From NCBI RefSeq assembly GCF_000380165.1, contig NZ_KB904665.1:1-64000 (forward strand): a DNA stretch of 64,000 nucleotides, in the 5' to 3' direction. The notes under the pieces are model-generated. The model did not search any database. It was not told the DNA's origin and saw only the letters and a program-made list of their open reading frames with translations. This document shows positions 11,310 through 38,525 of this stretch, piece by piece. This stretch comes from Wenjunlia vitaminophila DSM 41686. GTDB taxonomy: Bacteria > Actinomycetota > Actinomycetes > Streptomycetales > Streptomycetaceae. Numbering within the stretch: position 1 is the stretch's first letter; every line of letters starts with the position of its first letter. A program made the position numbers and the translations under genes.

Positions 11310-11562
11310 GTCACTCACTCCCTCGTCACGAGCTCCGCCGCCGCGGAGCAGCAACGAGCTTATGGGGTGCGCCGGCACCCGGGCACCGCCGAGCGGGACC
11401 CGAACAGGCCCTCCCGTCCGCCCCTCCGTGCCCGGCGGCGCCGGGCACGGAGCGCGAAATCGACTCCCGGGGAGGACCTCGGGCATTCACACATGAGTCC
11501 GTAACAGCCCGGGGTCCACAGTCAGTCGTTGGGCTTTCGCCCAGCTCAGCGAATGGACCATC

Positions 11563-12198
11563 ATGAGCTGGGTGTACGAATCACGCGACGGCACCGTGGG
11601 CGACGACGACACACTCGCCGCCGCGGTCACCGCCGCGCGCCACGGCTCGGAGGACGGCTTCCGGCTCGTCTACCGGGCCTTACAACCGGGCCTCCTGCGT
11701 TACCTGCGCACCCTGGTCGGCGAGGAGGCCGAGGACGTGGCCGCCGACTCCTGGGTGCAGATCGTGCGGGGACTCGGCTCGTTCCACGGGGACGCCGACG
11801 ACTTCCGGGCCTGGACGACCACCATCGCCCGCAACCGCGCCATCGACCACCTGCGCCGGGTGCAGCGCCGCCCGGTCGCCGACGCCCCGGTCGAGGACCT
11901 GGTCGTCTCCCGGCCCGCCCCGGAGAACACCGCCGAGGCCGCCCTGACCGCCATCAGCACCGACGAGGCCGTGGCCCTGCTCGGCCAGCTACCGCGCGAC
12001 CAGGCCGAGGCGCTGGTGCTGCGGATCGTGCTCGACCTCGACGTGGAGACCACCGCCCGCATCCTGGGCAAGCGCTCCGGCGCGGTGCGTTCGGCCGCCC
12101 ACCGGGGGTTGCGGCGGCTGGCCAGGATGCTGACGGCGAGAACCCCGAGTTCCGCCGAGGTCGTGACGGGAGCCACGGCCAGGACGCTGAACGAATGA
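11563..12198 (+). CDS. ECF sigma factor, 211 aa
   Basis: Region 2 is visible at residues about 30-95 (LVYRALQPGLLRYLRTLVG, AEDVAADSWVQIVRGLG, DDFRAWTTTIARNRAIDHLRR) and region 4.2 at 135-185 (LGQLPRDQAEALVLRIVLDLDVETTARILGKRSGAVRSAAHRGLRRL). ATG 11563 starts MSWVYESRDG. The downstream gene encodes a one-span Pro-rich membrane protein that could be its anti-sigma factor. The signal is unknown. Confidence 0.88.
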   Translation: MSWVYESRDGTVGDDDTLAAAVTAARHGSEDGFRLVYRALQPGLLRYLRTLVGEEAEDVAADSWVQIVRGLGSFHGDADDFRAWTTTIARNRAIDHLRRVQRRPVADAPVEDLVVSRPAPENTAEAALTAISTDEAVALLGQLPRDQAEALVLRIVLDLDVETTARILGKRSGAVRSAAHRGLRRLARMLTARTPSSAEVVTGATARTLNE

Positions 12199-22705: not shown

Positions 22706-24745
22706 TCAGCCCGCATTGGAGTACTTGCCCCTGCTGAGTTGTTCCAGCCGGCGCCGCACGGCGCGCAGGGCGCCTCCGGTCGCGTCGGGGACGGCGAGCC
22801 GCAACGCCACCAGTTGCGGGCCGATCCGCAGCGCCGCCGCCACGTCGTCCACCCGCTGCCACACGTGGTGCGCGTTGTTGACCGCGTTCACGGCGTCGGG
22901 GTGGTCGGCGCTCTGCCAGGTGAGTCGTCCCTGGGCCGCGGTGATCCACCGCTCGGCGGCGCGCACCAGCTCCCCCGACTCGTAGGCGATCTGGGCCTGG
23001 GCCTCGATGACGTACACCAGCTCCATCGAGTCGGGACCGTAGGTCCGCAGGGCGTACTGCTCCCACCCGGCGGCGAGCGCCGCGGCCTCGCTGAACCGCC
23101 TGGCCCGCAGGGCCTGCCCGATGGCGGCGCGCGGGTCGTGCGCCGGCTGCGGGGGGACCGCCGGCGGGGCGGCGGGGGGCCGGGGGGCGCGCTCGCTCGG
23201 GGCGGGCGGCGCATCGGGCTCGGCCAGGGCGGGCGCCGGGGCCGAGGGCACCGGGGGCGAGGGCGGTGCGGCGACGGCGGGCGGAGCCGGGGGCATGGGA
23301 GGAAGCGGTGGGAGGGAGGCGTGCGGGGGGCCGGCGGGCGCGAAGCCGGGGGGCAGGGCGGTCGGGTGCCGGGGGGTGGGCTCGGGAGCGGGGGGCGGGG
23401 ACTGCTGCGGGGCCGGTTCGACGTCACGGACCGATTCGGCGTCGGTCAGCGGTGCGCCGGGGAACGCGGTGTCGGCGGGCCGAGCGGGGAGGGGCTCCGG
23501 GTCGGCGGGAGCGGGATCGGACGCGGCCGTTCCCGTGTGGTCCGCGGTCACGGGGGAGAAGTCGCCGTGCTCTGGGGTCGAGGTGTCGGACATAGCTGGT
23601 CCCCCGTCAGTTGGGTAGTGGTGGTGCGGGTCTCCCGGCTCCGGGTCCGTGGTGGACCCACCGTGGGTGAGTGGTTCGTCCGAATACGGTCCCGGGGTGG
23701 GATCGTCGCGCAGCGTCGGAAGATCGTCCAGGTCCAGGCCGTCGCCCGGGTCCAGGCCCGGGCTCAGGTCCGGGTTCGGGCCCGCGTCCGTCGGCAGGCC
23801 CCCTCCCGGGGACGCTCCCGGGACCGGACCACCGTCGGCGTCCTGACCGACACCGCCGTGCGGCCACCAGTCAAGCTCAGAACCAGCCAGGTGTGACGTG
23901 GGACGGGGTGGGCCAACCGGGGCGGGCCGTACCCACGGGCCCCCGAAGAGGTCCGACGCGGGCGCGGAGGACCACGCCGGTGCGGTGGCGGTGGCCGACG
24001 CCCCAGGCTCCCCCGGCCCCTGCGCGAGGGTCCCCGCGGGCGCCGCCGGGACCCCGCCCGGCGACGGGGTGGGCGTGCCCGGGGTGCCGGTCCCTGGTTC
24101 CAGCAGCAGCACCGTGGAGGTGCCGAGGCCGGTCCGCCCGGCGGCGTGCAGGTCGGCGAGCGGGGGCCGGGTCCCGCGTTCCCTGAGCATCGCGGCGAGG
24201 GCCCCGGTGTAGCCGGGGGCGTCGCCCTCCCCCCGGCCCCCGGGCGGGACCACGGCACCCCAGACCGGCAGGTCGTGCGCGAGCTCCACCGGATCGATGC
24301 GGGACCACGCCTCCTTGTCCGCGACCAGGTCGGCGATGACCGTGGTGCTGCCGGGCCTGCGTCCGCGCAGTTCGTTCGAGAGCCACTCCCAGGGGAAGGC
24401 CGTGTACCGCACCGTCAGGGCGGACGTCTGCGCCAACGCCAGGTGGGGGCGCCGCTGTTTGCGGTCCACGGTGAGCCGCCCGGCGACGTACACCAGCAGC
24501 GGGCCGGGTGTGCCCGCGGCGGTCCGCACATGGGTGAGCAGGGCCTGCGGCTGGGCCGGGTCCACCACCCGTATCACGTCCACCGGGGCGCTGGTGCCCA
24601 CCAGCAGCGAGGGAGGCACGGCGGCCAGTCCCGCCAGGGACTCCGTCCGTTCGGGGGTCCTCTTCCGCCGACCCGGCGGCATCACGGATATCAGCAGCGC
24701 GCAACCGCGTCCGCCGCCTTCTCCCGTCACCCTGCTCATCCCCAT
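22706..24745 (-). CDS. Pro-rich protein with degenerate caspase-like N-terminus and helical C-terminus, 679 aa
   Basis: I cannot assign this to a named family. Residues 1-200 show alternating strands in caspase order: GPLLVYVAGR where an active enzyme has a G-H-G strand, then TTVIADLVADKEAW where D-x-C would be; neither His nor Cys is there. Residues about 210-560 are a Pro/Gly/Asp-rich linker. The last 120 residues are helix pairs with a TPR-like look (IGQALRARRFSEAAALAAGWEQYAL; ELVYVIEAQAQIAYESGELVRAAERWI). The start is ATG 24745 or 24739. It is divergent from the active caspase-like gene with 81 bases between them, so it probably belongs to the same system as regulator or adaptor. Confidence 0.55.
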   Translation of the reverse strand: MGMSRVTGEGGGRGCALLISVMPPGRRKRTPERTESLAGLAAVPPSLLVGTSAPVDVIRVVDPAQPQALLTHVRTAAGTPGPLLVYVAGRLTVDRKQRRPHLALAQTSALTVRYTAFPWEWLSNELRGRRPGSTTVIADLVADKEAWSRIDPVELAHDLPVWGAVVPPGGRGEGDAPGYTGALAAMLRERGTRPPLADLHAAGRTGLGTSTVLLLEPGTGTPGTPTPSPGGVPAAPAGTLAQGPGEPGASATATAPAWSSAPASDLFGGPWVRPAPVGPPRPTSHLAGSELDWWPHGGVGQDADGGPVPGASPGGGLPTDAGPNPDLSPGLDPGDGLDLDDLPTLRDDPTPGPYSDEPLTHGGSTTDPEPGDPHHHYPTDGGPAMSDTSTPEHGDFSPVTADHTGTAASDPAPADPEPLPARPADTAFPGAPLTDAESVRDVEPAPQQSPPPAPEPTPRHPTALPPGFAPAGPPHASLPPLPPMPPAPPAVAAPPSPPVPSAPAPALAEPDAPPAPSERAPRPPAAPPAVPPQPAHDPRAAIGQALRARRFSEAAALAAGWEQYALRTYGPDSMELVYVIEAQAQIAYESGELVRAAERWITAAQGRLTWQSADHPDAVNAVNNAHHVWQRVDDVAAALRIGPQLVALRLAVPDATGGALRAVRRRLEQLSRGKYSNAG

Positions 24746-24826
24746 AAGCAGCACGGTATCCGCTGGTGGGGTCGGCCGCCGGACTACCGTGGTTGACGCG
24801 CCACCGTGGGAGACAGGGGGAAACGG

Positions 24827-25948
24827 ATGTCCACAGACCCGTCGCGCACCAGGGCCCTGGTGGTGGGTGTCGAGAGCTACGGGGGCGAGCCCGGCTGGCA
24901 GCTCGACGGCCCGGTCAACGACGCCCTGACCTGGGCACGTTGGCTGCTCACCGCGGGAGTCCCGCCAGACCGGGTCACCCTGCTGCTCTCCCCGCTGGAA
25001 CGCAACACCCGGCACGCCGAACGCGCGCCGGTGGCGCACCGGCCCGCGGACCGGGAGACCGTCCACCAGGCACTGTTCCGCGAACTGCCGGCCGCGGGAG
25101 GAGACCTGCTGTTCGTGGCCTGGTGCGGGCACGGCCTGGTGAGCTCGGACCGCCGCCACCGGCTCCTGTACGCGGACGCCGCGCCGGACGACGTGCGGGC
25201 CCTGGACCTGGACGCCGCCCTGACCGCCTACCGCTCGGCGCTGGTGCCGGGGTTCCCCGAGCAGGTGTGGCTGGCCGACGCGTGCGCGGTGGACGCCGAC
25301 CCGGGGGCCCTGCGCCCGGACCCGGTCCCCGCGGGGCGGGCCACCCCGCGGCCCGGGCAGTGCGCGGCGTTCGCCTGCGCCCCCGACGGTTCGCCGCGCA
25401 ACGGGGTGGTCACCCGCCAGGGAGCACTGACCGCGCAGGCGCTGAGCCTGCTCACCTGGCCACCGGACACCGATCGGCTGCTCACCGCGCTCGGGGAGCG
25501 CCTGTCCCCCGGGGCCCCGGGGGACCCGCGGCCCCGCGGTTACTTCTGGCGCCACGGGCCGAGCCGCCCGGCGCCGCCCGTGGCCACCGTCCCGCCCCCA
25601 CCGCAACCAGGACCACCGCCCCGCCGCTCCCCTCGCCCCGGGCTGAACCAGCGCAGACGACTGCTCGAGGCGCTCGAGGCGGTGCCCGCGGTCGCCGAAC
25701 CGGCGTCCCGCGAGGTGGTGCTCCAGCAGCTCCCCCGGTCCATCCGCGGCAGCCTGCCGAGGTCCAACGTCACCCGGCTCGACCTGCTGGGCCTGCTCGA
25801 CACCTGTCTCGCGTTCCCCGACGGCCTAGTGCACCTCTGGACGGCGATCGGCATGGTGGACCCCGGCACATCCGCGTTCCGCGCGTTGCGTGAGGTGCTC
25901 GGGGAGTTTCCCAGTTTCGCCCCGGAGCAGGTCGATGACCTCGAATAA
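24827..25948 (+). CDS. Caspase-like protease with C-terminal effector-associated domain, 373 aa
   Basis: Residues 1-200 are a caspase/peptidase C14 domain: RTRALVVGVESYGG (strand 1), LDGPVNDALTWARWL, then the catalytic His in CGHG (His102) and catalytic Cys in LADAC (Cys153). Residues about 272-373 form a helical domain (RRRLLEALEAVPAVAEPASREVV to LLGLLDTCLAFPDGLVHLWTA) that matches the effector-associated domain 2 (EAD2) pattern used in NTP-dependent conflict systems for homotypic docking. ATG 24827 has the site GGGGGAAACGG. It heads a plus-strand set with the peptide and HExxH genes. Inferred role: suicide effector protease. Confidence 0.82.
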   Translation: MSTDPSRTRALVVGVESYGGEPGWQLDGPVNDALTWARWLLTAGVPPDRVTLLLSPLERNTRHAERAPVAHRPADRETVHQALFRELPAAGGDLLFVAWCGHGLVSSDRRHRLLYADAAPDDVRALDLDAALTAYRSALVPGFPEQVWLADACAVDADPGALRPDPVPAGRATPRPGQCAAFACAPDGSPRNGVVTRQGALTAQALSLLTWPPDTDRLLTALGERLSPGAPGDPRPRGYFWRHGPSRPAPPVATVPPPPQPGPPPRRSPRPGLNQRRRLLEALEAVPAVAEPASREVVLQQLPRSIRGSLPRSNVTRLDLLGLLDTCLAFPDGLVHLWTAIGMVDPGTSAFRALREVLGEFPSFAPEQVDDLE

Positions 25949-26074
25949 CGCGGTCCGACCGGAGGAATGCATGGACAAGGATGTCCGAGACGCAGGGTTT
26001 CCGGCCTGATGGCGGAAGGACATCATGGAAGAGCGGGTCGGTGACGACCCGCATGCTGGGAGGGCAGCGGCACG

Positions 26075-26308
26075 ATGCATCAGTCCAGGACCGCCATCGA
26101 GTCAGAACTTCTCGATCTCGGGGGAGTAACGCTTGAGCAGCTACGTGCGCTGGACGACCCCGAACGGGAGAGAAACAAGCAGCGGCTGTTGCAACGGCTC
26201 AACCACCTCGACACCAGCCTTGGGGATAGCGCGAACAGCAAAATGGCCCGGCCGTGCCTACCCGGGAAGGCCAGCTCGTGCACAATGACGCGCCTTCGGC
26301 CCGTGTGA
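26075..26308 (+). CDS. 77-aa peptide with FxsA-like leader, candidate RiPP precursor
   Basis: ATG 26075 follows GGGAGGG. Residues 8-45 (ESELLDLGGVTLEQLRALDD, then a long basic helix with QRLLQRLNHLD) closely resemble the leader of FxSxx-COOH (FxsA) peptides, which carry a D-L-x-G-[VL]-[ST]-L-E-x-L-R-x-L block. The tail (SANSKMARPCLPGKASSC then TMTRLRPV) does not end in F-x-S-x-x, so the core differs from canonical FxsA. The TGA overlaps a GTG that opens the HExxH gene (GTGA at 26305-26308), tying the peptide to that enzyme. No radical SAM maturase is in the window. Confidence 0.6.
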   Translation: MHQSRTAIESELLDLGGVTLEQLRALDDPERERNKQRLLQRLNHLDTSLGDSANSKMARPCLPGKASSCTMTRLRPV

Positions 26309-28200
26309 TCCACCATTCCTGGCACCGGTTGTCCGAGTCCGCCTTCGACGCCCTCGCCGGTGGCGCGGGAGACGCCGCCACACTCCGCCAGTTGTGGGCC
26401 GCGGAACGCAGCCACCGTCTCCTCCTCCTCGATCTGCTCATGGACGTCCAGGCCCGTGAGCCCACGGCGACGGGTCCGCTGGCGCCGGCCGAATCGGCCT
26501 GGCAACTCCTGGTGGCGGCGCAGCGACGGGACGGCGCAGCGGTGGAGGAGACGCTGTTGTTCCCGGAGACGGGCCTGTGGCTGGCCCGGGTGCTGCGCCG
26601 GCTCAGGGGGGCGCCGGCCGGTGCCGTCCCGCTCTGGGCGGACGTCGGACAGTTGCACGTCATGGCCGCCGCGGTCGCCGTCCGGGCCGGCCTCGACTTC
26701 TCGTTGTCCGTTCCTGCGCGCTCCGGCACGGTCTGGCTGCCCGGCCTCGGGCGCGCGGTGCTGCCCGGGCTGCCCCGGTGGGACACCGCGCAGGTGACGC
26801 ACACGGCGACGGGGCGGCTCCGCGTGTCGGCGCGCACCGGACAGGTCGTCGTGTCCGGCGCCCTGGACCGGCCGGCCGACGGCTGGCAACCGCCCCGGCT
26901 GCTGACCCTCGATCCGGACGGCCCGGGCAGCAGGGTGTTCCTGGACGACATCAGCTTCCACCGGGTCTCCTCGACGCAGGCGTCACCGCCGCTGAAGCGG
27001 CTGCCGGACCGAACCGCCGCGCACTGGGCCGAGGCACTGCGGGCCGCTTGGCGGCTGCTGGCCGACGCGGACCCGCAGTCCGCCCTCGACGTGGCCGAGG
27101 TGCTGCGCTCCGTCGAGCCGGTCCCCAGTGAGGACGACCACAGCACCCGGAGCGCCTCCTCCGGGGACGCCGTGGGAAGGCTCGCCACCACGCAGCCGGA
27201 CACGCCGGCCCAGCTCGCCGCGGTGCTGGTGCACGAGGTGCAGCACAGCAAGCTCAATGTGCTGATGCACCTCTACGCCCTGCACGGCCCGGAGGCCGAA
27301 CCCCGGCTCTACGCCCCCTGGCGGAACGATCCGCGCCCGCTGCGCGGCATGTTGCAGGGGGTGTACGCGTTCACCGGGGTGACCAGGTTCTGGCGCGGCT
27401 GGGCGGGCTCCGGCCGGGAGCCCGAGGCGAAGGACGCGCTCGCCTGGTTCGAGTTCGCCCTGTGGCGGCGGCAGTTGCTGCGGGTGCTCCCCTCGCTGCG
27501 GAACGACCCCGAGCTGACGCCGCTCGGCCGCCGGCTGGTGGAACGGCTCACCGCCACCGTCAGCCGTTGGGGCGACGACCCGGTCCCGGCACCGGTCCTG
27601 GCCCTGGCCCGTGACGCGGCGGACGACCACGCCACGACCTGGCGGCTGTACCACCTGGTCCCGGACCCCGACCTGGTGGCCGCCCTGGCCGACGCCTGGT
27701 GCGACGGCACCGCCGTTCCCGAGGCGCCCTTGGGCCACCGGGACTCCCGCCTGCGGCCCGACCCCGGGGCGTCCCTGCTGGACCGGCGGGCCGCCCTGCT
27801 GCGGCTGAGGCTGGGCGAACCGCTGCTCTTCGACAAGCTGGTCGCCTCACCCGAGGAAGTGGCGACCGTGGTCCGCGGCGCCGTCCCCGCCGACCTGCAC
27901 CTGGCGTCCGGCGACGCGGCCACCGCGGCGCCCCAGTACACCCGGCTGATCGCCACGGGCGAGGACCCGGACGGGGCGGGGTCCGCCGCCGGCGCCGCGG
28001 CGGCCTGGGCGGGGCTCGCCCTGGCCGCGCGTCGGGCCGGTCAGCGGGAGGCGGCACAGGCCCTGCTGACCGGGCCGGAGGTGGTGCGGGCGGTGTACCG
28101 CGCCGCCTGGCGGCGGGCCGGACGGGCACCGGACCCGCTGCGGCTCGCCGGTTGGCTCCACGGCCCGCTCGGCGGGCGGGTCACCGGCGGGGGCGGTTGA
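26305..28200 (+). CDS. HExxH-motif putative peptide beta-hydroxylase, 631 aa
   Basis: The start region (HHSWHRLSESAFDALAGGAGDAATLRQL) and H310-E-V-Q-H314 within VLVHEVQHSKLNVLMHLYALH identify the HExxH putative peptide-modification family, now named aKG-HExxH-type peptide beta-hydroxylases; in FxsBH proteins the same domain is fused to a radical SAM enzyme. Here it stands alone with one Cys only, so there is no Fe-S cluster. GTG 26305 was chosen because it overlaps the peptide stop; GTG 26254 and 26278 are alternatives deeper in the peptide gene. The C-terminal third is helical and repeat-like. Predicted substrate: the 77-aa peptide. Confidence 0.75.
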   Translation: MIHHSWHRLSESAFDALAGGAGDAATLRQLWAAERSHRLLLLDLLMDVQAREPTATGPLAPAESAWQLLVAAQRRDGAAVEETLLFPETGLWLARVLRRLRGAPAGAVPLWADVGQLHVMAAAVAVRAGLDFSLSVPARSGTVWLPGLGRAVLPGLPRWDTAQVTHTATGRLRVSARTGQVVVSGALDRPADGWQPPRLLTLDPDGPGSRVFLDDISFHRVSSTQASPPLKRLPDRTAAHWAEALRAAWRLLADADPQSALDVAEVLRSVEPVPSEDDHSTRSASSGDAVGRLATTQPDTPAQLAAVLVHEVQHSKLNVLMHLYALHGPEAEPRLYAPWRNDPRPLRGMLQGVYAFTGVTRFWRGWAGSGREPEAKDALAWFEFALWRRQLLRVLPSLRNDPELTPLGRRLVERLTATVSRWGDDPVPAPVLALARDAADDHATTWRLYHLVPDPDLVAALADAWCDGTAVPEAPLGHRDSRLRPDPGASLLDRRAALLRLRLGEPLLFDKLVASPEEVATVVRGAVPADLHLASGDAATAAPQYTRLIATGEDPDGAGSAAGAAAAWAGLALAARRAGQREAAQALLTGPEVVRAVYRAAWRRAGRAPDPLRLAGWLHGPLGGRVTGGGG

Positions 28201-28302: not shown

Positions 28303-31300
28303 TCACAGCGGCAACGGGTCCGCGTCGCAGTTGGACCGCCGCCAGGCGATCGCGTCGGCGAGGGCGGGGTGGTGCTCGCCGAGGTGACGGCGGATGCCCT
28401 CCACCGCCTGCTCGTGCAACGCCTGGGCCTCCTCGGTGTGGCCGAGCGCCTTCAGGTCCTGCGCCAGGTTGCTCTTCAGCGCCAGCACCGAGGGGTGCTC
28501 CTCGTTCAGGACCGTGATGCTCGCCTCCAGGGTCCAGCGGTCGAGTTCCGCCGCCGCGGCGACCTCCCCCTGCGCGAACATGTCGCTGGCGAGGTTGGTG
28601 CGGCACACCAGGGCGTCCGGGTGGTGCTCGCCGAGCCGCTCCACACAGCGGTCGAGTACCGACTCGTTGAGCCGGCGGGCGGCGTCCACCCGGTTCAGCA
28701 ACCGGTAGGTGACCGCGAGGTCCATGTCCGCCGAGAGCGTGTTGGGGTGGTCCGGTCCGAACACCTCGGCGTACAGGTCACGGGTCCGCTGTCCCAGGTG
28801 CAGCGCCTCGTTGAGGTCACCGAGCTGCCGCAGGTCCACCGACGCGTTGAGCGAGGCGACCAGCGCGTCCGGGTGACGGTGTCCGTAGCGCTTGGTCAGG
28901 GCCCTGCGGACCGCCTCGGTCAGCTCCGACGCACGGTCGTGGTAGCCGGCCTTGCGCAGCGACACCCCGAGTCTGGCCGTGGCGCGCAGGGTGGCGAGGT
29001 TCTCCTCGCCGACCGCCCTGCGGTACTTGTCCACGATCCCCTCGAAGAGCTGCGCGGCCATCGCGTACTCGCCGAGGTTGCGCCGGTCCAGGGCGACGGA
29101 GGTCTCGGTGAGCAGTCCGCTCAGCGACTCCTCGCCGTACATCTGCGCCTTGCGCTGCCAGGTCAACTGGTCGAGTTCCAGGGCCCGCCGGAACTCGCCG
29201 TTGACCCGCAGGCAGACCCCGAGGTTGTGGGCGTGCAGCAGGGTCTCCGGGTCGTCCTCGCCGAAGGCCCGCAGCGCCCGGTCGTAGACCTCCTGGTCCA
29301 GTGCCAGGGCCGCCCGGTAGTCGCCCTGGGCCCTGCGGTCGACGGCCACCTGCCCCATGACGCGGAGCAGTTCCTCGTCGGTGTCGCTGACCGCCTCCCG
29401 CTGGAGCACGTCCAGCATGGCCTCGCCCACCGCGGCGGCCTGGGAGTAGCGCCCCATCCCCCACAGCACGAACCGCAGTTGCCGCCCCATCATCAGGCCC
29501 TGCCGGTCGGCCTCGCCGAAGGCGTCCCGCCAGATGTCGTAGGCCCGCTGGGCGAACTCCCGGGCGCTCTCGTGCTCGCCCCAGTAGTACAGGTACTCGG
29601 CGACGCTGTAGACCGCCTGGCGGACGACCGGGGATTCCGACCGCATCGCCTCGGAGACCACCACGTGCGGGTACAGCTCCTTGAACCGGGGCCAGTGCTC
29701 GGGGTCCTGGGGGTCGCGCGGGGTGCTGGCGGCGAGCAGCAGGTGGGCGCCGCGGCGCATCCTGGCGCGCTGTTCCTCGGACATCCGGGCGATCAGCACG
29801 GCCTGGACCAGCCGGTGCATCTCGATGGAGTTGGTCCGGTGGTCGATCTTGGCGAGGGAGTAGCGGTTGATCTCCCGGATGGCCCGGCCGAGGCGCAGCG
29901 GGTCGGTCAGCGCCCGGTCGAGGTCGGGGGCGATGGGTTCCACCGCGGCTCCGGAGAAGAGCGTGCGGGAGATGGGCTCGGGGGCGAAGTACGCGCAGAC
30001 CTGGAGGAGTTGCAGCGCGGCGGCGTTCTTCCGCTCGAGGTGGTCAAGGGAGACGTTCCAGGCCGTGGCGACGGTCTCCTCGTAGTGGGTGGGCGGGGAG
30101 ACGGTCATCAGCTCGGCCCGCTTCTCCTCGAACAGCCGCAGGTACTCGGCCGCGGGCATACCCGTCTCGGCCCGCCAGGCGGACGCCTGCTCCACCGCGA
30201 GCGGCAGGTCGCCGAGGATCTCGGCGAGTTGGTTCGCCTCCTCGGTGGGGAGGTCGGGATTGCGGCGCTGGAGGAGGTGGATGCTCTCCTCCCGTTCGAA
30301 GACGTCGACCTCGAGCGGATGGGCCAGGGTGTTCCACTGGGGATTGCGTGAGGTCACGAGAATGGAGCCGATCGGTCCGCTCCCGGGCGCGGTGGGAAAG
30401 TACTCCCGAACGGCTTCCGGGCTTTCCGCGTTGTCGAAAACGAGCAGCCAGCGACCATAGGGATTTCCGGTCCGCAGGGCCTCGAGAACGGCCGGCACCG
30501 CGGTGAGGGCCTCACCGGTGACCGGAAGGCGCAGCCGCTGGGCGAGTTCCACCAGGGCCTGGGCGATCTGGGTGGGCCGCTCCGCCGGAATCCACCAGAC
30601 GATGTCGTATTCGGTGGCGTGGCGGTACACGTACTCCAGGGCGAGTTGTGACTTCCCCACGCCGCCCATGCCGTGCAGGGCGTGCGGCAGCACGGCGGTG
30701 GGTCCCTCCCGAAGCCCGCTCTCGAGCTGGTCCAGCAGCTCCTCGCGGCCGGTGAACACCATGTTCCGCGGGGGCATGTTGCCCATGACGGCGGGGCGCA
30801 CCGCGATGTCCCGACCCGGGTGGGCAAGTGGTACGCCCTGGGCCGCCGGTGTCGCCATCGTGGTGCCTCCTCCGGGTTTGCTGGGACTGTCGTCGCCTCG
30901 GGGCGAGGGAACGGGCACCGGGCCGGGATTGTTCCGCATGTCGGGCGTTCCTGGGTAAGTCACTGTGCCAGAACCTTTGCCAATGAGTGGGACGGCATCG
31001 CCGGGGATATACGTCTGCGTCGATATGTCTATCGGATCGTCGGTGGACGAGATATGAGCTTCTATCAGGCCACGCAGTCGGCGAGCGCGATGCAGATGCG
31101 GACCGGAAAGCGCCTCCAGCACGGCGTGTTCCGCCAGCAGAAAACGCAGGTTCTCCCCGGTGACCTCAGGATCTCGGGAATGCTGGACTCCGTCCAGATG
31201 GAACAGCAGTTCCTGGGCCGCCTGGTTGCGCGGCGCCATGAATTCCGCTGCTTTCCGCAACGCCTTTTCTGTGGCCCTCCTGGTGCCCGCGGCGAGCAGC

Positions 31301-32883
31301 TCCTCACGTACGCCCCGGTGGAACAGGAAGGACCCCTCCCCGCCGAAGGACCAGGCGTCGACGAGGCCGCTCATCAGGAACTCGGCCAGATGGGCGGGGC
31401 CCGAGGCGGGCAGGGTGTGCCGCTGCACCACGGACATGATCGGCAGGTCCAGCTGCACCGCGGCCAACCGGGTCGCCAGGGCGAACGCCTGCGGGGAGGC
31501 CCACACCCGGAACCGGGCGACCCGCTCCGCCGGACTCATCGGCCGTGCCGCGGCCGGCTCCGCGTCGTCCGCCCCCGGTCCCTGCCACGGGCCGGCGAGC
31601 ACGGCGGCGACCTCCGTCCACCGGGGTCCGTTACCGGCCACGAAGCGCGCCCACGGGGCCAGCCAGGAACCGGCGACCTCCAGCACCGGCACGGGAACCA
31701 GCCGGCGGCGCTCCGCCTCGCCCAGCGACGCCCAAGGCAGCGGCGGCTCCGCGAACTCCCACTCCACCTGCCCGTTGCCGGACCTCGGTCCGGACGCGTG
31801 CAGCCGGACCCGCTCCGGGAACAGGCCGGTGCGGTGCCACAGTCGTTGGGGGAGGGCGTGCAGCAGCGCCAGGGGCTGGTGCCGGCCCCAGTCGCGCAGC
31901 AGGCTCAACACCGCCCCGGTCCGCCACCCCCGGGAGAGGCCGTCGGTGAGCACCAGGACCATCCGGCGTCCGTGCGGATCGACCAGGCTCCGCCAGGGCT
32001 GCGCCGGCGCCCCTGGCGAGGCCCCGCGCAGCTGCACCCCGTCCGGGGCCGCGGCGTCGCTGTCCAGCCGGCGCAGCGCGACGTGGCGGAAGCCCCCGTA
32101 ACGGTGCAGCACCCGTGCCAGGTGCCGCGCGGTGGCCCGCCACACGGCCATCCGCGGGCCGCCGTCCACCACGAGCACGGCGTCCCACCGGGCCTCGGCG
32201 GCCGGGCGCAGCACCGGGGGCAGCCAGGTGGAGGTCGCCAGGCGCTCGGCCGTGAGGTCCTCGTCCACCTCCAGGGTCCGCCCGGAGCCGACGCGTTCGC
32301 GCAGCGACCGCAGGGCTCGGCCGAGCGCCGCCGCGTCCACCCCCCGCTCGGTCCTGGGGGGCACCGGGAACGCCCGGCGGTGCGGGGCCGCACCGCGCTC
32401 CCCGCTGCCCGTGGAGACGACCCCGACCAGGGCGTTGGGGGCGCGTGACGTCCAGCCCCCGGGGGACGGGTCGGCGGGTCCGGCCCGACCGCCCGGCTCA
32501 TCTTCGGACGCCCCGCCGGGACCGGCACCGCCGGGGTCAACACCGTCAGGGTCCGGGGTTCCGGGGTCCGGGGCGCCGGTCGGGGCGTCCGTGCTGGTGG
32601 GCCGGGTGGCGCCGTGGGGCGCGGCGGTGTCCTCTGGGGCGTCGTCCACCCTGGTGGGCTCCGCTTCCTTCCCGTCCGGTGAGGCGTCGGGGTCGCGGGG
32701 ACGGACGGAGGTGACGGTGGGCTCGGCGAGGCCGGGGTGGTGCTCGGCGAGCCACAGCGCGTCGGCCACCTCCCACCAGCACAGCGCGGCGACCGGCAGG
32801 CGCCCGGGGACCCGGTCGGAACCCGGGGCCTGTGCCCCGCGCCCCGACCCCGGTCCCTCGGACGCCGACGGCCGCCGGGTCAC
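28303..32883 (-). CDS. Degenerate vWA/SAV_2336-like, NB-ARC and TPR protein (FxsT-like), 1526 aa
   Basis: GTG 32883 overlaps the MoxR stop (GTGA). Residues about 232-420 look like a vWA fold (ARWDAVLVVDGGPRM, RMVLVLTDGLSRGW) in which the MIDAS D-x-S-x-S is replaced. Residues about 440-540 match the SAV_2336 N-terminal-related region (RVWASPQAFALATRLAAVQ). After a linker, an NB-ARC STAND NTPase spans about 715-1000 with P-loop GMGGVGKSQ (Lys744), Walker B LLVFDN and sensor ILVTSRNPQW. The last 480 residues are TPR repeats with many DHPNTL/EHHPDAL turns. This NB-ARC/TPR half resembles the FxSxx-COOH system TPR protein. Likely the sensor of the island. Confidence 0.78.
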   Translation of the reverse strand: MTRRPSASEGPGSGRGAQAPGSDRVPGRLPVAALCWWEVADALWLAEHHPGLAEPTVTSVRPRDPDASPDGKEAEPTRVDDAPEDTAAPHGATRPTSTDAPTGAPDPGTPDPDGVDPGGAGPGGASEDEPGGRAGPADPSPGGWTSRAPNALVGVVSTGSGERGAAPHRRAFPVPPRTERGVDAAALGRALRSLRERVGSGRTLEVDEDLTAERLATSTWLPPVLRPAAEARWDAVLVVDGGPRMAVWRATARHLARVLHRYGGFRHVALRRLDSDAAAPDGVQLRGASPGAPAQPWRSLVDPHGRRMVLVLTDGLSRGWRTGAVLSLLRDWGRHQPLALLHALPQRLWHRTGLFPERVRLHASGPRSGNGQVEWEFAEPPLPWASLGEAERRRLVPVPVLEVAGSWLAPWARFVAGNGPRWTEVAAVLAGPWQGPGADDAEPAAARPMSPAERVARFRVWASPQAFALATRLAAVQLDLPIMSVVQRHTLPASGPAHLAEFLMSGLVDAWSFGGEGSFLFHRGVREELLAAGTRRATEKALRKAAEFMAPRNQAAQELLFHLDGVQHSRDPEVTGENLRFLLAEHAVLEALSGPHLHRARRLRGLIEAHISSTDDPIDISTQTYIPGDAVPLIGKGSGTVTYPGTPDMRNNPGPVPVPSPRGDDSPSKPGGGTTMATPAAQGVPLAHPGRDIAVRPAVMGNMPPRNMVFTGREELLDQLESGLREGPTAVLPHALHGMGGVGKSQLALEYVYRHATEYDIVWWIPAERPTQIAQALVELAQRLRLPVTGEALTAVPAVLEALRTGNPYGRWLLVFDNAESPEAVREYFPTAPGSGPIGSILVTSRNPQWNTLAHPLEVDVFEREESIHLLQRRNPDLPTEEANQLAEILGDLPLAVEQASAWRAETGMPAAEYLRLFEEKRAELMTVSPPTHYEETVATAWNVSLDHLERKNAAALQLLQVCAYFAPEPISRTLFSGAAVEPIAPDLDRALTDPLRLGRAIREINRYSLAKIDHRTNSIEMHRLVQAVLIARMSEEQRARMRRGAHLLLAASTPRDPQDPEHWPRFKELYPHVVVSEAMRSESPVVRQAVYSVAEYLYYWGEHESAREFAQRAYDIWRDAFGEADRQGLMMGRQLRFVLWGMGRYSQAAAVGEAMLDVLQREAVSDTDEELLRVMGQVAVDRRAQGDYRAALALDQEVYDRALRAFGEDDPETLLHAHNLGVCLRVNGEFRRALELDQLTWQRKAQMYGEESLSGLLTETSVALDRRNLGEYAMAAQLFEGIVDKYRRAVGEENLATLRATARLGVSLRKAGYHDRASELTEAVRRALTKRYGHRHPDALVASLNASVDLRQLGDLNEALHLGQRTRDLYAEVFGPDHPNTLSADMDLAVTYRLLNRVDAARRLNESVLDRCVERLGEHHPDALVCRTNLASDMFAQGEVAAAAELDRWTLEASITVLNEEHPSVLALKSNLAQDLKALGHTEEAQALHEQAVEGIRRHLGEHHPALADAIAWRRSNCDADPLPL

Positions 32884-34043
32884 GCCGGATCCGCCCCCTC
32901 GGTGCTCAGCGGGTGCCAGATCGAGCGCAGCACGGCCTGCCACTCGGCGTCGTCGCCGTCCTGGTAGCGGTAGGCACCGGAGGTGGCGAGGTGGGCGGCG
33001 TTCAGTAACTGGTCGGCGGCCAGCCCGCCGGCCTGTTCGCTGCGCAGCACGAACTCGCTGACCAGTTGCTCCCTGAAGTCCCCGAGCCGGTTGGAGAAGT
33101 GCGCCGCGACCAGCTCGCCCAGCGCCTCGGGCCCCGGGTCGGGCATGTCCAGGCGCAGGCAGCGGCGCAGGAAGGCCTCGGGGAACTCCCGTTCGCCGTT
33201 GGACGTCAGAACCACCACCGGGAAGGTGTGGGTGCGCACCACCCCGTCGCGGACCGGGGCGGTGCCGCCCGGGTCGGCGGTGTGCACGACCACCTCGGGG
33301 GACCGGTGCTTGACGCGCACCAGCGGCGGCACCTCGAACCAGCCGTCCTCGAAGAGCGTCAACAGGTCGTTGGGCAGGTCGGCGTCGCTCTTGTCGATCT
33401 CGTCGATCAGCAGGACCCTGGGCAGCCTGTGGGGCAGCAGCGCGGTGCCCAACGGGCCGAGCTGCACGAAGTCCCCGATGTCCGCCCCGAACTCCCGCGC
33501 GTCGTCGGCGCCCGGAGCACCGTCGGCCCGCTGCTGGGCGGCGTACCAGGCCTGACCTGCCTGCGCCCGGCCGATCACGTCGTACTCGAAGAGGCCGGAG
33601 GCGAGGGTGGTCCTGCTGGTCACCGGCCACTGGAGGACCCGACCCAGGCCGAGCTCCCGGGCGATCCGGAAGGCCAGCGCCGACTTCCCGACCCCCGGCC
33701 GGCCGGTGACCAGCAGCGGGCGGCGCAGCAGGATCGCCGCGTTCACCAGGCGGACCTCGTCCTCCGGCGGGCGGCGCACGGTGGCTCCCGGCGGGCCGAG
33801 CCGCCGGTCCGCCTCGTCGTCGTCGGGTGGCTGGGGCAGGCAGGGGCCCCCGCGGAAGGTACGCCACCGCGGCCCCTCCGGCCAGGTGCGTTGGTCGTGG
33901 GGGGTGGGCGGGAACGCCTCGCCGGTCCCCCGGTAGGGCAGCCCCGGGGTCCCCGGGCCGCCGGCCGCGGGGCCGTTGCCGCCGCCGCCCGGGGGGCGCC
34001 CGTCGGCGTTCCGCGGCGCTCCGTTGTCGTCCGGCGCGTTCAC
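32880..34043 (-). CDS. MoxR-family AAA+ ATPase, 387 aa
   Basis: Walker A GRPGVGKS (residues 114-121), Walker B LLIDEIDK (211-218), sensor 1 VVLTSNGEREFPEAF and the arginine-finger stretch FLRRCLRLDMP fit MoxR chaperone ATPases. About 95 Pro/Gly-rich residues precede the AAA core. GTG 34043 overlaps the VMAP-like stop, and its own TGA overlaps the GTG of the vWA/NB-ARC gene, so the three are translationally coupled. In vWA-MoxR-VMAP ternary systems this ATPase is the NTP-dependent core that remodels the partner proteins. Confidence 0.88.
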   Translation of the reverse strand: MNAPDDNGAPRNADGRPPGGGGNGPAAGGPGTPGLPYRGTGEAFPPTPHDQRTWPEGPRWRTFRGGPCLPQPPDDDEADRRLGPPGATVRRPPEDEVRLVNAAILLRRPLLVTGRPGVGKSALAFRIARELGLGRVLQWPVTSRTTLASGLFEYDVIGRAQAGQAWYAAQQRADGAPGADDAREFGADIGDFVQLGPLGTALLPHRLPRVLLIDEIDKSDADLPNDLLTLFEDGWFEVPPLVRVKHRSPEVVVHTADPGGTAPVRDGVVRTHTFPVVVLTSNGEREFPEAFLRRCLRLDMPDPGPEALGELVAAHFSNRLGDFREQLVSEFVLRSEQAGGLAADQLLNAAHLATSGAYRYQDGDDAEWQAVLRSIWHPLSTEGADPA

Positions 34044-35719: not shown

Positions 35720-37054
35720 TCACGTGCGGTACTCGGGAATGGCTCGCGCCAGCAGTCGGTACACCTCGGGGTTGGCGAAGTACGACGTGTGGGCCGCCCA
35801 GACCGGATGGCCGTTGTCCACCGCGATGTCCCTGACCTGGTCCCCGAAGACCCCGGAGGCCAGGAAGGACAGCAGGTCACGGGGGTCGTAGATGTTGATC
35901 CACGGGGGGAACCCGGCGGGCAGCCCGGCGCCGAACGGGCGCGAGGGCAGGGCGTCGAGCTCGTACAGCAGCGGCGCCTGGGAGCCGACGGTCACCAGCA
36001 GGTCCACCGGGGGTACGGAGGGCGCGGAACCGTCCGGTCCGCCATCCGGCCCGAGTACCCCGGACGCCAGCAGGTCGAACGCGACGACTCCGCCGAGGCT
36101 GTGGCCGAGCAGCACCACCGGGCGGGGGAGTTCCCGCAGCCGGTCGGCGACGTAGGCGCGCACCGCCCGGCCGCGCACCAGGTAGCTGAGCACGTCCCCG
36201 GCGAACCCCAGGGTGAGTCCGGTCAGGGCGCCCCGGCGGGCGGTCACAAGACGCGACGCCAGACGGCGGTCCCGGATGCGGGAGGACAGGCTCAGCGCCG
36301 CGGACACCGCGCCGCCCAGACCCCGGGGTTCGCCGCCGAGGCCGTCCACCAACGCGTCCACCACGGCCTCCCGGGTCTCCCGGGGGACCGTGTCGGGCCC
36401 GCCGGGGACCCGGGCCAGGCCCCAGGCGGTCAGCGCCCGGGCCACCAGTCGGGGCAGCCCGTCCGCCGCCGCCACGTTCGCGGCCCCCAGCGCCCGGGAG
36501 AACGCCTCGGAGTCGAGCAGGGCGGCCACGGCGGAGTCCAGCCCCCCGGCCCCGCCGCTCGACCCGCCGCACGGCTCGCCTGCCGCGCCCTGCGGCGGGC
36601 CGGCCGGCCCGGCGAGCAGGACCTCGTTCAACCCGGCCGCCGCCCAGGCCGCGCGGACCGCGATGTCCCGCCCGAGGGCGGCGGCGCGGGCCCGCAGCGC
36701 CTCACCGGCCCGGGCCGGACCCGACGCCCGGTCCGGCCGTGCCGACAGCACGAACAGGTCCAGTTCGGCCCAGGGGTCTGCGTACAGCAGTGCCCAGCGG
36801 GCCCTCTCGTCGTCCCGCTCCCGGCGCGGCCAGCGCGCCGGACCCGACGGCGCACCGGGCGGGAGCCCCGGTATCGAGGCCCCGGCCGCCCGCAGGTGCG
36901 AGCCGAGGACCTCGCCCCACGCGCAGGGTTCGACGCGGACGTCGGGACGGACCGCGGCGAACCCGGACCGCACCGCGCCCAGCGTCGCGGTGTACCCGGG
37001 TTCGCGCACGCCGGTTCCGTGCACCAGCAGGATCGTCGCCCCAGTCGCAGCCAT
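35720..37054 (-). CDS. Alpha/beta hydrolase (lipase-like), 444 aa
   Basis: The N-terminus ILLVHGTGVREPGY is the oxyanion strand of an alpha/beta hydrolase and VVLLGHSLGGVVAFDLL holds the G-x-S-x-G nucleophile elbow at about residue 320. A catalytic His is plausible in DNGHPVWAAHTSYF near the end. A 250-residue, partly Ala/Gly-rich insertion separates strand 1 from the elbow. ATG 37054 lies 13 bases after the aldehyde dehydrogenase stop, so the two are probably one transcript. It may be a lipid-active enzyme; whether it belongs to the neighbouring conflict island is open. Confidence 0.75.
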   Translation of the reverse strand: MAATGATILLVHGTGVREPGYTATLGAVRSGFAAVRPDVRVEPCAWGEVLGSHLRAAGASIPGLPPGAPSGPARWPRRERDDERARWALLYADPWAELDLFVLSARPDRASGPARAGEALRARAAALGRDIAVRAAWAAAGLNEVLLAGPAGPPQGAAGEPCGGSSGGAGGLDSAVAALLDSEAFSRALGAANVAAADGLPRLVARALTAWGLARVPGGPDTVPRETREAVVDALVDGLGGEPRGLGGAVSAALSLSSRIRDRRLASRLVTARRGALTGLTLGFAGDVLSYLVRGRAVRAYVADRLRELPRPVVLLGHSLGGVVAFDLLASGVLGPDGGPDGSAPSVPPVDLLVTVGSQAPLLYELDALPSRPFGAGLPAGFPPWINIYDPRDLLSFLASGVFGDQVRDIAVDNGHPVWAAHTSYFANPEVYRLLARAIPEYRT

Positions 37055-37067
37055 GGCTGGTCCCGGC

Positions 37068-38525
37068 TCAGAACGGGAAGACGCTGCGACCGTGCTGGAC
37101 GGATATCCATTTCAGCGTGGTGAAGGCCTCCACGGTAGACTCGCCGTTCAGCCGGCCGACACCGGAGGACTTCTCCCCTCCGAACGGCACGATCGGCTCG
37201 TCGTGGATGGTGGCGTCGTTGACGTGGACCATCCCGGTCTCGATCCGCTGGGCCACCCGCACCCCGCGCTCGACGTCCCGGGTGTGCACCGCTCCGCTGA
37301 GTCCGAACGGGGTGTCGTTGGCGAGTTCCACCGCCTCGTCCTCCCCGTCGAACGGGATGATCACGGCCACCGGCCCGAAGACCTCCCGGCGTAGGAGCGG
37401 GGCACCGGCCGGGACGTCGGTGAGCACGACGGGGTCCACCATGGTGCCCTCCGTCCTGCCGCGCAGCAGCACCGTGGCGCCCATCGCCACCGCCTGGTCC
37501 ACCTCCGCGGTGATCCGCTCGGCCTGGATGGCGTTGATCAGGGGGCCCAGGTGGGTCCCGGGGTCCCGGGGGTCCCCGACCCGCAGCGTCCGGACCCTGG
37601 CCACGAACCGCTCGGTGAACTCCTGCCGCACCGAGCGGTCCACCAGCAGCCGGTTGGCGGCCATGCAGACCTGGCCGGAGTGCGCGAAACGGCTGAACAC
37701 GGCTGCGTCCACGGCGTAGTCGAGGTCGGCGTCGTCCAGCACGACCAGCGCGCTGTTGCCGCCGAGCTCGAGCACCGAGCGTTTGAGGTGCGCCGCGACG
37801 ACCTGGGCCACGTGCCGGCCCACCCGGTCGGAGCCGGTGAACGAGATGACCTCGGGGACGGGGTGTTCCAGCAGGGCGTCGTCGATCTCGGCGATGTCGG
37901 TGACGACGACGTTGAGCAGACCGGGAGGCAGCCCGGCGTCGGTGAGCAGCCGCGCGATGAGGGTGCCGCCGACGATGGGCGTGTCCTGGTGCGGCTTGAG
38001 CACCACGCCGTTGCCGAGCGCCAGTGCCGGGGCGACCGACTTCATCGACAGCAGCAGCGGGAAGTTGAACGGGCTGATCACCCCGACGACGCCCACCGGC
38101 AGCCGGTACAGGCGGTTCTCCTTGCCGTCCACCGGCGAGGGCAGGATGCGCCCCTCGGCGTGCAGCGCGACCTGCATCGCCTCCCGCAGCACGTCCTTGG
38201 TGAGGGAGATCTCGAACGCCGCCTTGACGTGGGTGCCGCCGAGCTCGTCGATGATGGTCCCGGTGATCTCCTGTTCCCGTTCGGCCAGGAGGGCCAGGGC
38301 CCGCTCGAAGACCAGGCGGCGGGTGTAGGGGCTGGTCCGGGCCCAGGCGCGCTGGGCGCGTTCCGCCGCGCGGTACGCCTGGTCCACGTCCTGCACGGTG
38401 GCCACCCGGATCTCGGCGAGCTTCGCCCCGTTGTACGGGTTGAAGTCCACGATGTCCCACGACCCGCTACCGGCTCGCCACTGACCGTCGATGTACTGGC
38501 AGGCTAATTCCGACAAGTTGGGCAT
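37068..38525 (-). CDS. Aldehyde dehydrogenase, 485 aa
   Basis: NAD(P)-dependent oxidation of an aldehyde to an acid. Motifs: FNFPLLLSMKSVAPALALGNGVVLKP, the FTGSDRVG loop, catalytic Glu in LELGGNSALVVL and catalytic Cys in SGQVCMAANR. Length and wording are closest to benzaldehyde/vanillin-type dehydrogenases, though the substrate is not fixed by sequence. ATG 38525 was preferred over 38561 because GGGAAGG lies upstream and the family starts near MPNLSELACQYIDGQW. Confidence 0.92.
   Translation of the reverse strand: MPNLSELACQYIDGQWRAGSGSWDIVDFNPYNGAKLAEIRVATVQDVDQAYRAAERAQRAWARTSPYTRRLVFERALALLAEREQEITGTIIDELGGTHVKAAFEISLTKDVLREAMQVALHAEGRILPSPVDGKENRLYRLPVGVVGVISPFNFPLLLSMKSVAPALALGNGVVLKPHQDTPIVGGTLIARLLTDAGLPPGLLNVVVTDIAEIDDALLEHPVPEVISFTGSDRVGRHVAQVVAAHLKRSVLELGGNSALVVLDDADLDYAVDAAVFSRFAHSGQVCMAANRLLVDRSVRQEFTERFVARVRTLRVGDPRDPGTHLGPLINAIQAERITAEVDQAVAMGATVLLRGRTEGTMVDPVVLTDVPAGAPLLRREVFGPVAVIIPFDGEDEAVELANDTPFGLSGAVHTRDVERGVRVAQRIETGMVHVNDATIHDEPIVPFGGEKSSGVGRLNGESTVEAFTTLKWISVQHGRSVFPF

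Follow-up and report, generated by a model that had tools for sequence, protein, structure and literature searches.

The window analysed here (the whole stretch of 64,000 nucleotides from Wenjunlia vitaminophila DSM 41686) contains a small open reading frame that runs into the gene of a stand-alone HExxH enzyme. This locus raises the question of whether the small frame encodes a precursor peptide of the FxsA type and, in that case, which part of the peptide would be modified by the enzyme.

The peptide gene and its leader

26057..26064 (+): Shine-Dalgarno sequence TGGGAGGG of the peptide gene, 10 nt 5' of ATG 26075 (-10.7 kcal/mol to the anti-Shine-Dalgarno sequence)
26075..26308 (+): FxsA-like precursor peptide gene, 77 aa, an ORF recognized by two leader HMMs
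26096..26191 (+): conserved leader, residues 8-39 (IESELLDLGGVTLEQLRALDD...RLL), defined by residue conservation in 12 precursors and by dN < dS

A preliminary description of this DNA had noted in the 77-aa frame (26075-26308, + strand) an FxsA-like leader block, LLDLGGVTLEQLRALDD, and a tail devoid of F-x-S-x-x; both observations hold. The leader was searched with two HMMs made without the window peptide and without its clade. With the HMM of 19 FxsB-linked leaders, whose precursors are mostly of the FxSxx type, the peptide ORF ranked first (E=3e-7; runner-up 0.73) among 1041 window segments in six frames, and with the HMM of 103 FxsB-less precursors it was detected with an E-value of 8e-11 (runner-up segment 0.26). 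The alignment of 12 precursors reveals that the leader residues S10, D14 and L15 are invariant and that E9, L12, L20, R37, L38 and L39 are nearly invariant. The dN and dS values of the leader are 0.17 and 0.51 against L114, the nearest relative, and the ratio is below 1 against the nearest relatives.

TIGR04268, the NCBI model of FxSxx-COOH peptides, gave no match to the peptide at E<=1; it scored 34-50 bits on FxsB-linked precursors and likewise left several other FxsB-less precursors unmatched. The C-terminus of the peptide is TRLRPV, and the F-x-S-x-x end is absent. As the leader HMMs match the peptide and TIGR04268 does not, the peptide is, judged on its leader sequence, a homologue of FxsA and not an FxSxx-COOH peptide. 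A genome-wide precursor search indicated that it is the sole such precursor in the window genome.

The stand-alone HExxH enzyme

26264..26271 (+): Shine-Dalgarno sequence GGGAAGGC of the enzyme gene, within the run-on of the peptide and 6 nt before GTG 26278
26278..28200 (+): stand-alone alphaKG-HExxH enzyme; GTG 26278 is the preferred start and GTG 26305 a possible one (then 631 aa)
27232..27246 (+): HEVQH motif, H310-H314 (numbered from GTG 26305); H310, E311 and H314 are invariant in alignments A1 and A2
27319..27339 (+): WRNDPRP block, second conserved active-site-like block; W339, R340, P343, R344 and P345 are invariant and position 342 is D or E

The enzyme matched TIGR04267 with 170.8 bits (cut-off 40, E=2.7e-50), and every enzyme in the compared list has HExxH. 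When it is read from GTG 26305, the motif H310-E-V-Q-H314 and the single Cys reported previously are both recovered. The reported GTGA overlap stands as regards the letters, literally present at 26305-26308 (+), but not as regards the start of the enzyme: the Shine-Dalgarno pairing is -7.1 kcal/mol for GTG 26278, against -1.7 kcal/mol for GTG 26305. On the basis of this Shine-Dalgarno sequence, GTG 26278 is the better start, so that the peptide and enzyme genes probably share 31 nt; the motif would then be numbered from H319.

The solved relatives of the enzyme identified by sequence are 22nu/22ob and ChlH 8s5f. The AlphaFold model (pLDDT 84) was matched to 22ob (SjiH-Ni) with E=4.8e-17 and a TM score of 0.82 over the target, and to ChlH 8s5f with E=8.6e-6; about 200 residues at the end of the model are predicted to be helical and lie beyond these fold matches. 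Sequence and model place the protein in the TIGR04267 family, with the HExxH and WRx[DE]xRP blocks and the predicted fold of ChlH/SjiH. The genome-wide search recovered a single TIGR04267 gene in the window genome. Scanning the genome contigs with the enzyme as a single sequence gave no matches, and the alignment-based scan gave matches.

Distribution of FxsB and of the tail types

A search for a radical SAM FxsB elsewhere in the genome had been recommended. The genome-wide profile search found none above the cut-off in the window genome (best score of 28 bits for a cut-off of 370). We gathered 146 distinct loci; among those with a precursor, 120 lack FxsB and 19 contain it. The term "FxsB-less" is judged at the locus for all loci other than the window, the genome-wide FxsB search having covered the window genome only. 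In the 120 FxsB-less loci, the precursor is localized just 5' of the enzyme and has the same leader (median stop-to-start offset of 42.5 nt). The FxSxx end occurs in none of these precursors, and an R-x-D/E end occurs in 51 of them, against a mean of 2.0 and a maximum of 8 in tail shuffles. The R-x-D/E end was found in 0 of the 19 precursors with FxsB; F-x-S is present near the end in 16 of these and exactly as a terminal F-x-S-x-x in nine, and in most of their loci the FxsB gene sits between the precursor and the enzyme. The vWA-type SAV_2336 region was detected in 102 of 120 FxsB-less loci but in only three of 19 FxsB loci. In the enzyme tree, one branch (support 90) separates all FxsB-associated enzymes from the others, a topology that does not separate a gain of FxsB from a loss.

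These 120 loci and the single tree branch bear out the proposal of an FxsB-independent branch where the HExxH enzyme is the sole linked modification enzyme found. This branch is however not new. Versions without FxsB (RxD, acidic), connected with vWA-NB-ARC-TPR/VMAP systems similar to that of the window, were described by Kaur et al. 2020 (PMC7159879); these authors set FxSxx apart from the RxD, acidic and FtsH types, tied rSAM-SPASM to FxSxx only and reported that AP-ATPase-TPR and vWA are fused when the type is RxD or acidic. The pattern observed here (FxsB only with FxSxx; vWA fusions) agrees with their description, beyond which our literature search retrieved no newer paper on this class. 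The peptide/enzyme pair of the window is a divergent member of this already described branch.

The window belongs to a fully supported clade of 16 loci in the enzyme tree, and the other named members are Streptomyces. The tails of this clade (GGENSWTA/V, GDPKSSFTV, NFGGDxx and SSGSEGS) are short and neither RxD nor acidic. In several other clades the tail is as conserved as the leader or more, for instance with 100% identity in the tail for 76-79% in the leader (L165/L183 and L203/L207), and this conservation argues that the tails are the functional part of the precursors.

Several other loci display particular features. The end of the R-x-D/E-ended FxsB-less precursors (e.g. L203, L163, L149 and L076) resembles ARMD (PosA/PflA) and R(V/T)DN (PesA), carried by the substrates of distant alphaKG-HExxH pathways. 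Four Streptomyces loci (L117, L118, L119 and L120) contain two HExxH genes arranged head to head; each gene has a precursor of its own, and the tails of the two precursors differ (e.g. SAERFD and NPQRDEA), which suggests paired peptides within one system. The tails of the clade composed of L130, L132, L133, L134, L143, L213 and L227 end with (G/A)G-x-x-GS, a type outside the four published classes. Long conserved tails (SGYNGSFPSRMRPxGPDSEEHVV) characterize the Micromonospora loci L186, L190, L193 and L209 together with L217 and L229, where the precursor stop precedes the extrapolated start of the enzyme by about 2 nt. In L032, a precursor gene (11544-11907) next to an annotated HEXXH gene is missing from the plasmid table, itself incomplete; small precursor genes of this kind may commonly be overlooked in annotation. 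The HExxH matches on Rhizobium plasmids are YhhA/YhhB-type loci and were discarded as uninformative.

The neighbouring conflict locus

24806..25948 (+): caspase-like protein with a C-terminal EAD2 (EAD2 PF19956 E=3.4e-24; caspase_w_EACC1 weak)
28303..32883 (-), start approximate: FxsT-type protein with SAV_2336 N-terminal region, NB-ARC and TPR in one ORF (NF040586 E=6e-260, NF041121 E=1.5e-106)
32880..34043 (-): MoxR-like AAA ATPase (AAA_5 E=3e-6; MadB_ATPase below cut-off), found at the same place in L032
34040..35578 (-): VMAP protein with an N-terminal EAD2 (VMAP-C E=2.8e-43, VMAP-M0 E=1.7e-28, EAD2 E=1.5e-8)

The HExxH gene and its precursor are located beside MoxR, vWA and VMAP genes, as in the VMAP-ternary systems. 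The SAV_2336 region joined to NB-ARC and TPR corresponds to the fusion of AP-ATPase-TPR with a vWA-type protein that marks the RxD/acidic types, the vWA identity of this N-terminal region being taken from PMC7159879. The locus is a predicted cell-suicide/defence system. It is flanked by two long reading frames, 22706-24688 (-) and 36628-38460 (-), with no Pfam match at E<=0.01. Two further FxsT-like NB-ARC/TPR genes are present in the window genome (contig C28, 51202-56269, L233-L236), on a contig where TIGR04267 is unmatched.

The tail of the peptide

26210..26248 (+): core-aligned tail, residues 46-58 (DTSLGDSANSKMA), aligned with the clade tails ...GDPKSSFTV / ...GGENSWTA, which end there
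26249..26305 (+): run-on, residues 59-77 (RPCLPGKASSCTMTRLRPV), past the stop of the relatives; stop codon 26306-26308

The tails of the window's clade usually end about 10 residues on. The window core GDSANSKMA aligns with the GDPKSSFTV-type cores, has lost the clade end S-[WF]-T-[VA] and is followed by 19 more residues. Alignment of the homologues gave a divided answer on the small ORF, as the leader is conserved and these last 19 residues are not. The core tail itself is poorly conserved and diverges fast among the window, L114 and L154, its nearest relatives; the closest available enzymes share about 54% identity, tail alignments at this distance are unreliable, and a dN/dS computed directly for the run-on would carry no meaning.

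Since the tail continues past the shared core through the ribosome-binding site of the enzyme, its "RP" and both Cys probably arose by extension after the loss of a stop. From these alignments, the simplest reading of the run-on is the loss of a stop with a tighter coupling of the peptide and enzyme genes, and it probably adds no conserved function. A frameshift was considered by reading the three frames and is less likely; a lost stop fits better because the core aligns in frame. An error of sequencing or assembly is a possible origin of the run-on. The precursor of G001, the other genome of the same genus, has the tail SVAGSNS, but gives no test of the run-on because it is placed in a different clade.

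The modification had been proposed to occur at SANSKMARP or in the Cys-containing tail, and this is not supported; the Cys part is specific to this peptide and resembles a stop-loss run-on. It is unlikely that the entire long tail, including SANSKMARP and the Cys end, is a new functional core modified by the hydroxylase alone. The ORF is indeed open until it reaches the enzyme, in a genome where no second precursor was found, and the sister locus L114 is long-tailed too, its tail passing through the Shine-Dalgarno sequence of its own enzyme. However, the extension of L114 is unrelated to that of the window, 14 of the 15 clade relatives have nothing equivalent to residues 59-77, and the corresponding DNA contains the Shine-Dalgarno sequence (26264-26271) and the preferred start of the enzyme and aligns in part with the non-coding intergenic spacer of L156/L167. 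Moreover, domain searches of the neighbouring genes revealed no Cys-processing gene beside the pair. Taken as a whole, the preliminary observation is partly confirmed and its interpretation partly supported.

Proposed role of the pair

We propose, with a probability of roughly 0.6, that the pair represents a RiPP-like precursor and its sole linked modifier in the FxsB-independent branch, with leader-guided hydroxylation of a short tail and a run-on derived from a lost stop. In this FxsB-independent pair, attached to a VMAP-MoxR-vWA-NB-ARC-TPR-caspase conflict locus, the HExxH enzyme would serve as the docking partner of the precursor leader and, using Fe2+ and alpha-ketoglutarate, would hydroxylate a residue of the short tail directly after the leader helix. 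The candidate residues are D51 or N54 in GDSANSKMA, and the reaction would occur without a prior cyclophane. The modified peptide might be an intracellular signal or toxin for the adjoining NB-ARC/caspase system. The ancestral stop would have been lost in this genome, the 19-residue run-on through the ribosome-binding site of the enzyme coupling both genes. This reading best accounts for the leader homology, the family and fold of the enzyme, the absence of FxsB, the conserved gene order and tails that are variable but conserved within clades.

Hydroxylation by the lone enzyme is plausible from its family membership and modelled fold, and action on a linear tail has precedent in the characterized alphaKG-HExxH enzymes: PflC/PosC (PMC12636437) and PesO (PMC13060819) are stand-alone and work without an rSAM enzyme. 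The former hydroxylate Gln with oxidative removal of the C-terminal ARMD (PMC12636437), and PesO hydroxylates Pro (PMC13060819). Counting against the proposal, ChlH, an FxsB-fused relative, hydroxylates Asp/His following cyclophane formation and requires the cyclophane to be installed beforehand, according to the statements on ChlH cited in PMC12636437. The weak conservation of the core tail in L114 and L154 also counts against it, as the sequence then gives no guide to the modified residue.

That the HExxH protein is instead a peptidase freeing a C-terminal peptide, as proposed by Kaur et al. 2020, appears improbable. HExxH is the zincin motif, cleavage was predicted in PMC7159879 and PflC acts as a hydrolase on a substrate that lacks the leader (PMC12636437), but family and fold are those of the alphaKG-HExxH oxygenases SjiH/ChlH, the WRxDPRP block is conserved and the characterized members require Fe and alpha-ketoglutarate (PMC12636437, PMC13060819).

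By analogy with the PosC-type systems, the R-x-D/E end could be a cross-phylum substrate signal for leader-docked, stand-alone alphaKG-HExxH enzymes that trim or hydroxylate the tail, an end swapped for others in the window's clade. The run-on might then be cut oxidatively at A58-R59, as PosC does at the Ala of ARMD, which would restore a short tail with a C-terminal amide. This reading as a whole is quite doubtful. The link of R-x-D to ARMD and R(V/T)DN is the lead of greatest interest; it bears on the branch and not on the window peptide.

The precursor could also be decaying after the loss of its stop, in which case the strain would yield no mature product or the enzyme would have another substrate. 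The run-on tail, the vanished S-[WF]-T-[VA] end and the fast divergence of the tail among the window, L114 and L154 would fit such a decay, which is very doubtful given that the leader is under purifying selection, the enzyme and the adjoining conflict genes are intact, both genes have good Shine-Dalgarno sequences and other precursors were not found in the genome. Finally, spurious ORFs are common in high-GC genomes, but a chance reading frame is refuted by the leader homology (E-values of at least 0.26 for all other window segments), by a position before the enzyme conserved in 120 loci and by the strong Shine-Dalgarno sequence.

The loci free of FxsB, in which the leader is conserved and the tails are specific to clades, offer a clean comparison set for the action of a single alphaKG-HExxH enzyme on linear peptides in the absence of a cyclophane. 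They also connect a little-studied class of bacterial conflict systems (NB-ARC/caspase) with a peptide that probably undergoes post-translational modification and may serve as the signal of these systems. Were the R-x-D end an enzyme signal common to PosC-type systems, it would help to predict the chemistry of the 51 precursors that have it.

Comparison with known systems

Like the window enzyme, PflC/PosC (PMC12636437) and PesO (PMC13060819) are stand-alone alphaKG-HEXXH enzymes; they act on a C-terminal tail, as is proposed for the window enzyme, and their precursors carry ARMD or R(V/T)DN, similar to the R-x-D end found in many actinobacterial precursors of the FxsB-less type. They differ in their precursor leaders and in having MNIO partners; the window peptide lacks both an R-x-D end and the ARMD tail typical of PflC/PosC. 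SjiH (22nu/22ob) and ChlH (8s5f) share the fold and the HExxH and WRxDxRP blocks with the window enzyme. Both belong to rSAM-HExxH proteins (PDB names; PMC12636437), whereas the window enzyme stands alone and is longer by about 200 residues at its C-terminus. The FxsA/FxsB (FxSxx-COOH) cyclophane RiPPs (TIGR04268/TIGR04269) have a homologous leader, a HExxH partner of the same family and an NB-ARC-TPR neighbour; the window differs from them by the absence of the FxSxx tail and of FxsB in the locus and the genome. The VMAP-ternary RxD/acidic systems (PMC7159879) are similar by the stand-alone HExxH gene, the diverging precursor, MoxR, VMAP, the caspase and the fusion of AP-ATPase-TPR to the vWA protein. 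In contrast to these systems, the window tail is neither RxD nor acidic and has a run-on, and its clade ends with S-[WF]-T-[VA], FGGxx or GS.
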